From a virus: a DNA stretch of 35,034 nucleotides. The stretch spans positions 1 to 35,034 of IMG/VR virus record IMGVR_UViG_3300027852_000029; one strand, written 5' to 3'. Position 1 is the first letter of the stretch. Every line of letters starts with the position of its first letter. The translations under genes were made by a program, and so were the position numbers. Below are positions 2,893 to 24,592 of the stretch, in pieces. The notes under the pieces were generated by a model, which saw only the letters and a program-made list of their open reading frames with translations, was not told the DNA's origin and made no database searches.

Positions 2893-3048
2893 ATGACTGA
2901 AGAAAAAAAAGTTAAAAAGACTGTTAACAAGAAATGTGTGGCGCTTAAAAATTTATGTACAACTAAAGATGGCAATGTGAAAAAAGGCAGTGAATTCACT
3001 TGCTCAACTAAAGAGTATGAGATTTTTAAAAAAGCCAAGGCTGTTTAA
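2893..3048 (+). CDS. Small basic protein after coat (DUF7210-like?)
   Basis: 51 residues: a Lys-rich N-terminus, then a compact segment of the form ALKNLCTTKDGNVKKGSEFTC and KEYEIFKKAKAV. The pattern hydrophobic-basic, then a KKGSEF turn, then a short helix, resembles the small DUF7210-like phage proteins found beside coat genes. This is recognition by layout only. RBS ATAGGTGA lies upstream and the stop directly abuts the next ATG. The function is unknown; a head accessory role is suggested by position. Confidence 0.6.
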   Translation: MTEEKKVKKTVNKKCVALKNLCTTKDGNVKKGSEFTCSTKEYEIFKKAKAV

Positions 3049-3378
3049 ATGAAAGATATTGACGCTCAAACTGGTATTACAGAGACATTCAGCAAAGACT
3101 CTATAACTGGTAAAATTCATATACATAAACAGCAGGACGTTAACCCGTTCTTACAGGCTAATAAAGACGAAATGTCTACTCAGTCTAGCGGCTTTAAAGG
3201 TGATATGCATAAAATGGCATCTATACCACCTATCGTATTAGAGATGTGGCGTGAGGATATGAAAGCAAAGGGATACCCTAACCCTAACCCGCTAGCAGTA
3301 GAAAATAGAAAGTATTTATTATCAAAACTTAACTCTCCTGACTGGAATTTCTTAAGAACCAAACAAGGCGTTATCTAA
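3049..3378 (+). CDS. Conserved podophage head-region protein, function unknown
   Basis: 109 residues. The C-terminal pattern, a Met-Ala-Ser-Ile-Pro-Pro helix with EMWREDM followed by LLSKLNSPDWNFLRT, is one I associate with a conserved protein between coat and head-tail adaptor in short-tailed phages. The N-terminal half is polar and histidine-rich (KIHIHKQQD). It overlaps the next start by one base (TAATG). It is probably a minor virion or head-completion component; the exact role is not known to me. Confidence 0.7.
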   Translation: MKDIDAQTGITETFSKDSITGKIHIHKQQDVNPFLQANKDEMSTQSSGFKGDMHKMASIPPIVLEMWREDMKAKGYPNPNPLAVENRKYLLSKLNSPDWNFLRTKQGVI

Positions 3379-4001
3379 TGGCACTATCAACCTATGACGA
3401 TTTAGTTAAAAGTATTGTGGCGTGGAGCCACAGGAAGGATATAGGAGATCTAATTCCTGATTTTATAGCCTTGGCTGAAACTGAGATGTACAACAATGAA
3501 GGTTGGCAATTAGAAACTAGAGATATGGAATTTGTATCAACAGCGTCCATTTCTGGTCGTTACTTAGAGCTACCACCTAACTTTGAAAAGTCACGGAGTA
3601 TACAGTTAGAAACTGGAAGTGGATTGGTCGATGTTAAATTTCAAGCTCCAGAGCAGTTACTTAGACAGTCAACGACAGGACAACCAAGATTTTTTAGTGT
3701 GATAGGTAATGAGATAGAGTTCGATCGTGTGCCGGATTCATCATACACAATTCAAATACAATACTATAAAAAGCCAGACCCGTTAACACTAACAAACCAA
3801 ACTAACAGTGTAATAACTAATCATCCTAATATATACCTGTTCGGCGCACTACATCAGGTTTTTGTTTACCTTGAAGACCCTGAGCAAATGACAAAATATT
3901 TTGCAAAAATGCAGTCAGTTATCCGTGGTGCAAATAAAGCGGCTAAAAAAGCGCGGTATGGTGCTGCTCCTTACATGCGTGTTGAGGGGGTAACTCCTTA
4001 A
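3378..4001 (+). CDS. Head-tail adaptor protein (gp6/SU10-adaptor-like)
   Basis: 207 residues. The start STYDDLVKSIVAWSHRKD, then IPDFIALAETEMYNN, is the typical opening of the adaptor family that docks beneath the portal in P22/SU10-like phages. A beta-rich middle (YLELPPNFEKSRSIQLE, YTIQIQYYKKPDPL) and a helical end (LFGALHQVFVYLEDPEQMTKYFAKM) follow, as expected for the four-helix adaptor core with a beta insertion. The start overlaps the previous stop, and its own stop overlaps the next ATG. It would connect portal to the gp10-like nozzle and help retain packaged DNA. Confidence 0.8.
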   Translation: MALSTYDDLVKSIVAWSHRKDIGDLIPDFIALAETEMYNNEGWQLETRDMEFVSTASISGRYLELPPNFEKSRSIQLETGSGLVDVKFQAPEQLLRQSTTGQPRFFSVIGNEIEFDRVPDSSYTIQIQYYKKPDPLTLTNQTNSVITNHPNIYLFGALHQVFVYLEDPEQMTKYFAKMQSVIRGANKAAKKARYGAAPYMRVEGVTP

Positions 4002-19805: not shown

Positions 19806-20672
19806 TTAACTACCGCAGTAACCGCCATCACATTGTCTAGCAAACTCTCTACCTTCTTTAGTTTCCGTTTCATAAGCCACATCAGAAACACCTTCAAACA
19901 TAACGCACTGCTCGCCTTTTAATTTATATTCATTTGGTACGTACTGGCTTTTAAACCCTCTTTCACCTCTGCCCCAAGCAACAGCCTGCCGAATACCGAC
20001 CCCCCCACCAACGCGGTAAGGCCTAAACATAGTTCTTGGCTTGTCGTTTCTGGTGTGACCCATTTCAATTTCAATGCTTTCTATTAAATCAATTCTCGGA
20101 TCGTTAAGCGGCATCATTGAGAGGTCTGTTTTATTAGCACAAACACACGGGTAACACTCCATTGATGAGTGAGGTAATGGTTTAAAAGGTGTTTTATTAA
20201 TTAGCTCATCACGCATAACCTCGTCATACCTAACTAATGGGTTCCAAACATCGCGCCCACCATGCTTTTTACTTTCCTCTTGATGTTCGGCTAAGTCAGC
20301 ACGGTTCAGGCTTTCCTCTCTTCTTCTACCGGTAACACATATCAAGTCTAAATCGGGATCTATTTTCTCTAGCAACTCATTATTTGGCTTTTCTTTTAAC
20401 TCTTGCGTACAAAACTGCATCGCGCTTGCTGGCATCGGCCAACCTTTTTTTCTACGAACAAGAGCCTCAAGCCCTTCTGATTTTGTTATATAAAAAGTAA
20501 CACCTAAACCAAGCAGCCATTCGCCAATCTTTTTAATCCTCAAAGGCCAATCATTACGCGCCCACCCTGTATTGTTATAAACAACACAAAAATCTAAACC
20601 CTTATCTATCATTAGCTGAATATTGGCTATTGAATCATTACCGCCAGAACAGCCAACTATATATTTATGCAT
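19806..20672 (-). CDS. PAPS-reductase-like PP-loop ATP pyrophosphatase family protein
   Basis: 288 residues. The N-terminal PP-loop SGGNDS (9-14) is followed by FCTQELKEKP (87-96) and GRRREES (115-121), the set used by PAPS reductase and DndC-like enzymes to bind adenylated substrate. A Cys cluster CYPCVC (173-178) and a C-terminal CDGGYC (281-286) could bind iron-sulfur or zinc. Phage homologues are widespread but their substrate is generally not known; sulfur transfer to DNA or tRNA, or nucleotide metabolism, are candidates. It is first in the leftward operon, with RBS AAGGAG. Confidence 0.8.
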   Translation of the reverse strand: MHKYIVGCSGGNDSIANIQLMIDKGLDFCVVYNNTGWARNDWPLRIKKIGEWLLGLGVTFYITKSEGLEALVRRKKGWPMPASAMQFCTQELKEKPNNELLEKIDPDLDLICVTGRRREESLNRADLAEHQEESKKHGGRDVWNPLVRYDEVMRDELINKTPFKPLPHSSMECYPCVCANKTDLSMMPLNDPRIDLIESIEIEMGHTRNDKPRTMFRPYRVGGGVGIRQAVAWGRGERGFKSQYVPNEYKLKGEQCVMFEGVSDVAYETETKEGREFARQCDGGYCGS

Positions 20673-20793: not shown

Positions 20794-21003
20794 ATGAAAG
20801 ATTTAACTGTTAAGCAAAAGGCTGTACTGAGTGCCATAAAAGAGTTTATTAATAAAAATAGCTTTCCACCAACATGCCAAGAATTAAGGAGTATACTCGG
20901 CTATTCTTCTGCTAATTCAATTACTGGCTATTTAGATTTAATTGAAAAGAAAGGCTACATAAAAAGAGCACCAAAAATCGCGCGTTCAATAGTGGTTTTA
21001 TAG
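20794..21003 (+). CDS. Free-standing LexA-type winged-helix DNA-binding domain
   Basis: 69 residues that align by pattern to the whole LexA N-terminal domain: LTVKQKAVLSAIKEFINK, FPPTCQELRSILGYSSANSI (recognition helix), then TGYLDLIEKKGYIKRAP, ending ARSIVVL. LexA continues into a self-cleaving peptidase domain; here the stop falls exactly at the end of the DNA-binding domain. The protein therefore cannot respond to RecA by autocleavage and would dimerise poorly unless by other means. It heads the replication operon and follows a promoter with a palindromic operator. It could be an early regulator or could compete at host SOS boxes. Confidence 0.82.
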   Translation: MKDLTVKQKAVLSAIKEFINKNSFPPTCQELRSILGYSSANSITGYLDLIEKKGYIKRAPKIARSIVVL

Positions 21004-21060: not shown

Positions 21061-21735
21061 ATGAGTAATAAAAAGAAGTCATTTTTATTGCATATCGACA
21101 GCTTAGATATACTTGATGATCTAACTAACGGGCAAGCTGGAGTCTTATTTAAAGCTATAAAAGCCTATCAGCACGATGATGATTTTCCGATAGATAGTAT
21201 CGTTAAAATAGCGTTTTCACCATTCAAAAACCAGTTTATCAGGGATGATGAAAAATACAATAAAACATGCGAAAGGCGCGCCATTGCTGGCTCTAAGGGA
21301 GGTAAGCAAAAGGTAGCAAATGCTAGCAAATGCAAGCAAAAGGTAGCAAACGTAGCAGATACAAAGAATAAGAATAAGAATAAAACAAAGAATAAGAGTG
21401 ATAATAATAAAGAAGTAACTAAGGATCTTGTCGCTGACGCTCCTACATTTAATTTTAAAAGTGAATTGTTATTGCTTGGTGTTGATAAAGATATTTTAGA
21501 TGATTGGATTAAAGTCAGGATTAAGAAGAAAGCGGCTAATACAAAGACAGCATTGGCAGGATTTTTAACAGAAGCGACAAAAGCAAACTTGAGCGTTGCT
21601 GATGCTGTTAAAGTTTCTGCTGAAAATAGTTGGTCAGGGTTTAGATCGTCATGGTATGCAAATTTATCGCCAGACCAAAAAGCTAAATCAACACACACTT
21701 TTGAAAATCAAAATTATCAATCAGGAAAATTCTAA
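21061..21735 (+). CDS. Phage replication initiator (DUF6291-like N-terminus), origin-containing
   Basis: 224 residues. The N-terminus (KSFLLHIDSLDILDDLTNGQ, AGVLFKAIKAYQHDDD, IAFSPFKNQFIRDDEKYNKT, then RRAIAGSKGGK) follows the DUF6291 pattern of phage replication proteins. A low-complexity basic linker (about 80-125) is encoded by DNA repeats that probably are the origin. The C-terminal domain (about 135-205: DDWIKVRIKKKAANTKTALA, then ENSWSGFRSSWY) looks like the DnaT/DnaD-type helicase-recruiting module. As with lambda O, it would bind its own gene and hand over to the loader encoded next. RBS GAAGG. Confidence 0.75.
   Translation: MSNKKKSFLLHIDSLDILDDLTNGQAGVLFKAIKAYQHDDDFPIDSIVKIAFSPFKNQFIRDDEKYNKTCERRAIAGSKGGKQKVANASKCKQKVANVADTKNKNKNKTKNKSDNNKEVTKDLVADAPTFNFKSELLLLGVDKDILDDWIKVRIKKKAANTKTALAGFLTEATKANLSVADAVKVSAENSWSGFRSSWYANLSPDQKAKSTHTFENQNYQSGKF
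21301..21417. other. Probable replication origin: 10-bp iterons plus AT-rich tract
   Basis: Five AGCAAA hexamers end at 21310, 21320, 21330, 21340 and 21350, exactly 10 bp apart, with a sixth partial copy (AGCAGA) at 21354. They are followed by a purine-rich AT tract with four AAGAAT copies (21364-21381, 21388-21393) and ATAATAATAAAG. Phased initiator sites beside an easily melted region, inside the initiator gene, is the lambda ori design. The identification is inferred from this layout. Confidence 0.65.
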
Positions 21736-22502
21736 TGAAAACTCTTAAATCTATGCCAGATGATCCAGAGGTCAAACATTGTGAAAAGCATGGTGACTAT
21801 AAAGTTAAATATGCGCAAATAGGCGGAGGTAAATGCTGGGTGTTTGATAACTGCTGTGCTTGTGTTGATGAAGCTGACGCAGCAGCAAAATTACAAAAAG
21901 AAAAGGATGACGCTGCCCGTGATATAGAATACAAAAATAAACTCCGTGAGAGCAACCGTGTTAACGCTGGTATATCAAAGCGCAATCTATATAAGACGTT
22001 TGATGATTATATTTGCACTAGTGACGGACAAGCCAAAGCCAAGAGCGATTGCGAGAGGTTCGTGAAAGAGTTTCCAAGTCAAAAAAGCATGATCATGGTT
22101 GGTGGTGTTGGCACTGGTAAAACCCTGCTCGCTTCCGCAATGCTAGACTCTTTAGTTGATAATAATCGTTGCGAGATAATTAAAGTTATTGATTTGATAC
22201 GCCACTTAAAATCCACTTGGGCTAGAGATAGTGAAAACACAGAAGAGGATTTGATCAAATACTTTGTTGATCTTGATTTGTTGGTACTCGATGAAGTTGG
22301 GTCTCAATTTGGTAGCGATACTGAAAAGTTATTTATATTCGATATCATCGACGGACGATACCAAGACATGAAGCAAACTGTATTGATCAGTAATCTTGAT
22401 ATTAACGGCATTAAAGACGTTATCGGTGAGCGTTGCGTTGATAGATTACGTGAAGGCGGTGGCAGTATGATAGCCTTTAATTGGGAGAGTAATCGTGCTT
22501 AA
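21735..22502 (+). CDS. DnaC-like helicase loader, AAA+ ATPase
   Basis: 255 residues. The N-terminal C-x2-H...C-x2-C cluster (Cys16, His19, Cys40, Cys43) looks like a zinc ribbon, a basic helix follows, then the ATPase core: Walker A GGVGTGKT (123-130), Walker B LLVLDEVG (182-189), sensor-1 ISNLD (208-212) and a likely arginine finger in GERCVDRLRE. This is the DnaC/IstB arrangement. No DnaB-type helicase gene is present, so it probably loads host DnaB at the phage origin. Its ATG overlaps the initiator stop by one base. Confidence 0.88.
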   Translation: MKTLKSMPDDPEVKHCEKHGDYKVKYAQIGGGKCWVFDNCCACVDEADAAAKLQKEKDDAARDIEYKNKLRESNRVNAGISKRNLYKTFDDYICTSDGQAKAKSDCERFVKEFPSQKSMIMVGGVGTGKTLLASAMLDSLVDNNRCEIIKVIDLIRHLKSTWARDSENTEEDLIKYFVDLDLLVLDEVGSQFGSDTEKLFIFDIIDGRYQDMKQTVLISNLDINGIKDVIGERCVDRLREGGGSMIAFNWESNRA

Positions 22503-24431: not shown

Positions 24432-24461
24432 GTTTATTCCTTGATTGATTAATATGTAATA

Positions 24462-24508
24462 AATATTAAATTAATACTTGCAATAAGTCAAATATAGTTT
24501 AATATTAA
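24462..24508. promoter_or_regulatory. Overlapping opposed promoters within an inverted repeat
   Basis: Leftward promoter: TTGACT (24486-24491) and TAATAT (24463-24468) on the minus strand, 17 bases apart. Rightward promoter: TTGCAA (24478-24483) and TAATAT (24500-24505), 16 apart. The two overlap. AATATTAAA (24462-24470) and TTTAATATT (24498-24506) form a perfect 9-bp inverted repeat centred 36 bp apart, covering both -10 boxes. The rest of the gap 24432-24592 shows no gene. Confidence 0.62.
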
Positions 24509-24592
24509 TCTCAAGTCAGGTGATTAGGGCGCAACCACACAACCTGTAGATAAATATCAAAATGCGGTGCAACTAATTTAAAGGAGATAAAA

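Follow-up and report, generated by a model that had tools for sequence, protein, structure and literature searches.

The gene at 21061-21735 on the plus strand of the window, by which we mean the entire 35-kb virus record (35,034 nucleotides) analysed here, encodes a protein of 224 residues with a DUF6291 domain (residues 7-84), a low-complexity linker and an O-like/primosomal C-terminal part. The protein matched Pfam PF19808 (DUF6291) with an E-value of 1.4e-20 and 73.6 bits, the gathering cut-off being 27.2, as well as phrog_6451 (2e-20) and phrog_678 (1e-14). Its C-terminal domain (21448-21699, plus strand), recognised from phrog matches reaching residues 212-213 and from clustering of C-terminal sequence types, is an exchangeable module of C-type 0. 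A gene for a DnaC-like helicase loader follows on the same strand (21735-22502; phrog_50, E 7e-60, with IstB-like/AAA Pfam matches). Directly upstream, an ORF at 20794-21003 (plus strand) encodes a small protein resembling the LexA DNA-binding domain (PF01726, E 9e-17), which could be a regulator or an accessory initiator; several related phages have small ORFs of similar size ahead of their DUF6291 genes. A PAPS-reductase-like gene on the minus strand (19806-20672; phrog_424) adjoins this early region. The window also encodes an integrase-family gene, RecT and a terminase, which suggests that the phage is probably temperate. Homology and gene order support the view, already taken in the original prediction, that the gene product acts as a replication initiator working with a helicase or loader. 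Its C-terminus is O-like/primosomal, helicase or loader genes lie downstream in many relatives, and some relatives carry the C-terminal domain of lambda O or of r1t Orf11.

The repeats sit in the protein linker, between the N- and C-terminal domains. Five exact copies of AGCAAA start at 21305, 21315, 21325, 21335 and 21345 (array 21305-21350, plus strand) and fall, at their 10-bp spacing, in all three reading frames. A sixth copy with one mismatch, AGCAGA, begins at 21354, 9 bp past the fifth, and as the degenerate AGCAGAT (21354-21360, plus strand) it forms a junction that is conserved in the AGCAAA class and has the analogues GCCGAT and ACCGAT elsewhere. Four AAGAAT units follow at 21364, 21370, 21376 and 21388. 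TRF independently returned arrays of period 10 (21300-21350) and period 6 (21364-21397), so the five phased AGCAAA elements and the four AAGAAT units are as originally described. The extent first given, 21301-21417, indeed holds both array and tract, but the unit ends at about 21411. The stretch at 21358-21411 (plus strand), composed of nearly C-free hexamers (AAGAAT and its relatives), is a candidate DNA-unwinding element by its codon lock, low stability and silent-site conservation. Its low stability was evident from nearest-neighbour energies, which ranked the 50-bp window starting at 21361 among the ~0.2% of such windows on the contig that are least stable. The least stable stretch of the contig, at 24448-24510, contains the tandem repeat ATTAATATGAA and lies between listed ORFs. 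GC skew was uninformative as a test of the origin, since its sign changes track gene strand.

Phasing of this kind is rarely produced by chance. The pattern AGCAAA-N4-AGCAAA-N4-AGCAAA occurs three times in the window, always within the array, where 100 dinucleotide shuffles gave 0.02 on average, and four phased pairs were reached in 2 of 20,000 synonymous-codon redraws of the linker peptide. Because the 10-bp unit is read in three frames, the encoded peptide has a period of 10 residues (KQKVANASKC/KQKVANVADT). The description of the repeats as encoding a low-complexity linker thus stands as to their position, although the peptide is periodic. The placement of all sites on one helix face likewise holds roughly: with a 10-bp spacing and ~10.5 bp per turn, the sites drift by ~70 degrees over five copies.

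To place the locus in its family, we scanned IMG/VR and bacterial genome contigs with a DUF6291 alignment and added annotated phages, which yielded 52 non-redundant linkers (pairwise <85% identical) retrieved by protein sequence. All 51 proteins of the family alignment carry the DUF6291 Pfam match. Nearly all of the 52 linkers consist of short repeats followed by a nearly C-free hexamer tract, a count that, like the others below, overstates the number of independent events since the relatives share ancestry. The main repeat classes are AGCAAA, AACCCA and TACC, with AACCGA or other words in a few linkers; arrays of the AACCCA class often contain a central inverted copy, TGGGTT. Common to the classes is the junction, in which a last degenerate copy leads into GATA. 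The sole linker without repeats immediately after the DUF6291 domain is L049, where an in-frame T5orf172 (GIY-YIG-like) insert (3001-3951 of that locus) separates the domain from the iterons on the border of the origin; the AGCAAA array of L049, with a short tract, is found beyond the insert. One gene on the minus strand of L218 has two arrays, with several AACCCA/TGGGTT copies ahead of AGCAAA copies and a GTAAAT-type tract after both; it may hold an origin of dual specificity or one in transition. Three AACCCA copies at 10-bp spacing were also seen in ORFs of a different kind (L263, L294, L312, L342 and others) with ERLRKFRE-like and PTQPNPTQPN peptides, which may represent another initiator family with in-gene repeats.

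Selection acts on the DNA of array and tract, as had been suspected, and it is evident in four ways: the copies are phased over three frames, codons are locked, silent sites are conserved and the DNA words are specific to these genes. Among the protein-retrieved relatives, the AGCAAA class contains 82 copies where 21 ± 4 were expected from synonymous draws, with 49 pairs at 9-11 bp (1.5 expected) and frames divided 39/24/19, and the AACCCA class contains 86 copies (11 ± 3 expected) with 34 pairs (0.5 expected); for these counts the classes were assigned partly from the encoded peptide, and the TACC-type L059 was counted with the AGCAAA class. Relative to a background pooled from the same genes, and with L059 now placed in the TACC class, the codons of the tract are locked: serine is AGT in 154/154 cases (17% elsewhere), aspartate GAT in 174/175 (68%), asparagine AAT in 132/132 (59%) and lysine AAG in 86/104 (30%). 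The C content of the hexamer tract is 0.6%, compared with 16%. In 14 close relatives, silent variation affected 67 of 77 sites in the N-terminal domain, 5 of 21 in the iterons and 2 of 14 in the tract, while amino-acid divergence in the repeats was similar to or above that of the N-terminal domain.

DNA-word searches of IMG/VR pointed back to the same genes. Among the matches listed for triple AGCAAA, 69 of 120 fell in same-strand DUF6291-like ORFs, mostly just behind the domain; among those listed for triple AACCCA, 68 of 120 fell in DUF6291-like ORFs. The control word AGCTTT x3 at 10 bp gave 32 loci, none of them in a sense ORF of at least 60 residues, which makes it a weak control for coding context. 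The 21-nt tract word GATAGTGATAGTAAGAGTGAT had 12 matches, every one in a DUF6291 gene and on the strand of the gene. The same peptide spelt with TCN serines had five IMG/VR matches, none in a DUF6291 gene, and one of the five matches to its other AGY spellings was in such a gene, with one silent change.

The iteron class goes together with a short protein segment. In the window the codons for this candidate specificity segment, TCERRAIAGSKGGK, occupy 21265-21306 (plus strand) and correspond to the end of the long third helix. With iteron class assigned from DNA words alone, the segment type fits the class in 82 of the 83 decided protein-retrieved linkers, five more being undecided: ..AG..GG pairs with AGCAAA (29 linkers), N..NG with AACCCA or AACCGA (40 linkers) and LIA..R(Y/H) with TACC (13 linkers). 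The single mismatch, L062, appears to be an artefact of word counting: three AACCCA copies are present in this linker, and GGTA occurs within its hexamers. Among the pattern-found loci the clearest exception is L207, which combines an NRENGKSGGRP segment with six AGCAAA copies. The protein of the window and that of L044 share 78% of the core, yet their arrays are AGCAAA and TACC, respectively. Simple inheritance of iteron class with the DUF6291 core was rejected, the classes requiring 18 changes on a core tree of poor resolution, where shuffling gave a mean of 22.8. In the predicted structure DUF6291 forms three helices, of which the long one (residues 46-80) ends in the segment. Binding specificity is therefore probably located at the end of the third helix, around residues 69-82; linkage alone could also hold segment and iterons together, because they adjoin in the DNA. 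Comparison of the full model and of an N-terminal model (mean pLDDT 88.6) with PDB folds gave no convincing match, the best having a VIA Z of 5.2 to a stretch of a spliceosome protein, in the range of common helical arrangements, so the fold comparison did not show DNA binding by DUF6291. A sequence search of solved structures gave no significant match.

Behind the tract, at least 14 C-terminal sequence types were distinguished. The proteins of the window and of L003 are 90% identical in the N-terminal core and differ in C-terminal type. One type, found in five linkers, includes L007, whose C-terminal domain is 49% identical to that of lambda O over 94 residues and whose next gene is annotated as replication protein P; the C-terminal domain of L011 resembles that of r1t Orf11 (E 3e-15). 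Among the next genes in the sampled relatives are those for DnaB-like helicases, primase/helicases and DnaC-like loaders. Swapped C-termini with varied helicase or loader genes are the pattern expected if the N-terminal half of the initiator belongs with the origin and the C-terminal half with the helicase contact.

Taken together, the array, the tract, the DNA-level selection and the homology of the gene make it very likely that this phage carries its replication origin inside its own initiator gene, as the original prediction held, and we regard the locus as a strong candidate origin. In the mechanism we propose, the DUF6291 domain would bind the five or six AGCAAA sites, which face roughly the same side of the helix, and the bound array would strain and open the adjoining, nearly C-free hexamer tract. 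Judging from gene order and homology, the C-terminal domain may then hand over to the neighbouring DnaC-like loader, which would in turn load the replicative helicase.

Several other explanations of the repeats deserve consideration. Phage initiators are able to regulate transcription close to their own binding sites, and the repeats might be mainly an operator through which the protein autoregulates transcription, with replication starting elsewhere. An array within the gene could act as a roadblock, and further AT-rich windows of low stability exist on the contig, with the minimum at 24457. However, an operator needs no codon-locked tract of low stability behind its sites, yet such a tract is fixed in all three iteron classes, and gene order and C-terminal homology indicate helicase loading; we thus consider this explanation improbable. 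Still less probable is that the block has been conserved as a recombination joint for swapping C-terminal helicase-loading domains. The C-terminal types do switch right after the block, and the N-terminal part and repeats of the window and L003 are alike. Such a joint leaves the segment-matched iteron sequences and their helical spacing unexplained, and it could itself be a by-product of an origin.

It is least likely, to the point of being negligible, that replication slippage created the repeats as neutral sequence in a linker where the protein tolerates change. The low complexity and variable length of the tract, with its perfect (GATAGT)n runs, are what slippage might leave. But slippage would neither hold silent sites constant among relatives nor give identical codons in diverged lineages, and it would not keep a 10-bp unit over three frames.

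An origin within the initiator gene gives a family filed as function-less a proposed function and mechanism, and it explains the low-complexity (SD)n, (KN)n and KQ-VANASK peptides as a readout of origin DNA. It also provides a sequence signature by which origins of uncultured phages may be found straight from contigs, and the three natural iteron classes with their matching segments make the specificity between initiator and origin amenable to simple swaps. A tract of fixed hexamers also invites the question of which factor reads it. As a tentative extension, in which we place rather little confidence, DUF6291 might define a large initiator family not named before, with an origin built as a portable cassette: the segment, its matching iterons and a shared unwinding tract that would be read, once single-stranded, 6 nt at a time. 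If so, the GAT/AAG-AGT/AAT tract, kept behind all iteron classes, would be a strand-specific code read by the initiator or loader, beyond mere AT-richness.

The design of such an origin is already known. For the DUF6291 version, we found in the open-licence literature no paper on DUF6291, its binding, melting or replication, nor on family-wide phage origins like these. At iteron plasmid origins (RK2, F, R6K), as in DnaA-trio or ori2 elements, direct-repeat sites lie beside a repeated unwinding element (PMC10797057). The plasmid Rep proteins have winged-helix domains, whereas DUF6291 is predicted to form three helices, and the tract units differ as well. We know of no such plasmid origin that is located inside the initiator gene. 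The DnaA-trio element consists of consecutive 3'-(G/A)AT-5' triplets beside a DnaA-box; in the tract of the window 5'-TAR-3' recurs, mostly at least 6 nt apart, and no run of consecutive triplets spans the whole tract.

Phage systems are nearer. The TP901-1 ORF13 and Tuc2009 ORF16 replisome organizers bind direct repeats that lie within the genes encoding them and act as ori (PMC8965321). In TP901-1 ORF13 the N-terminus is HTH_36-like and the C-terminus is of the DnaB_2 (DnaD-like) kind, in contrast to the DUF6291 and O-like/primosomal parts of the window protein, and inspection of its sequence by eye revealed no comparable 10-bp array of 6-mers. In lambda, ori lies in the middle of the O gene, with iterons and an AT-rich region between the DNA-binding and helicase-loading parts (PMC7466680), an arrangement shared with the DUF6291 genes. 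Lambda has four 18-bp iterons ~20-24 bp apart where the window has 6-bp iterons at 10 bp, and the N-terminus of O is Phage_rep_O (PF04492) where the window protein has DUF6291 only. A BLAST comparison of the window protein with lambda O gave no match, and membership of the lambda O family was rejected, given the different N-terminal domain and iteron form. The parallel with lambda ori originally drawn is fair, although the layout of lactococcal r1t comes closer. Phage r1t has reportedly been studied experimentally (Zuniga, 2002). Its orf11, for which homology to the Tuc2009 replisome organizer has been described (PMC8965321), contains four GGAACC repeats exactly 11 bp apart within the initiator gene. 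Directly behind them lies a tract of GATAAGAAT type with almost no C, and the next gene, as in the window, encodes a DnaC-like loader. The repeats of r1t differ from those of the window in sequence and spacing (11 bp versus 10 bp), and Orf11 matches only PF09524 in Pfam, unlike the DUF6291-bearing window protein; r1t orf11 is nevertheless the closest layout that we found.
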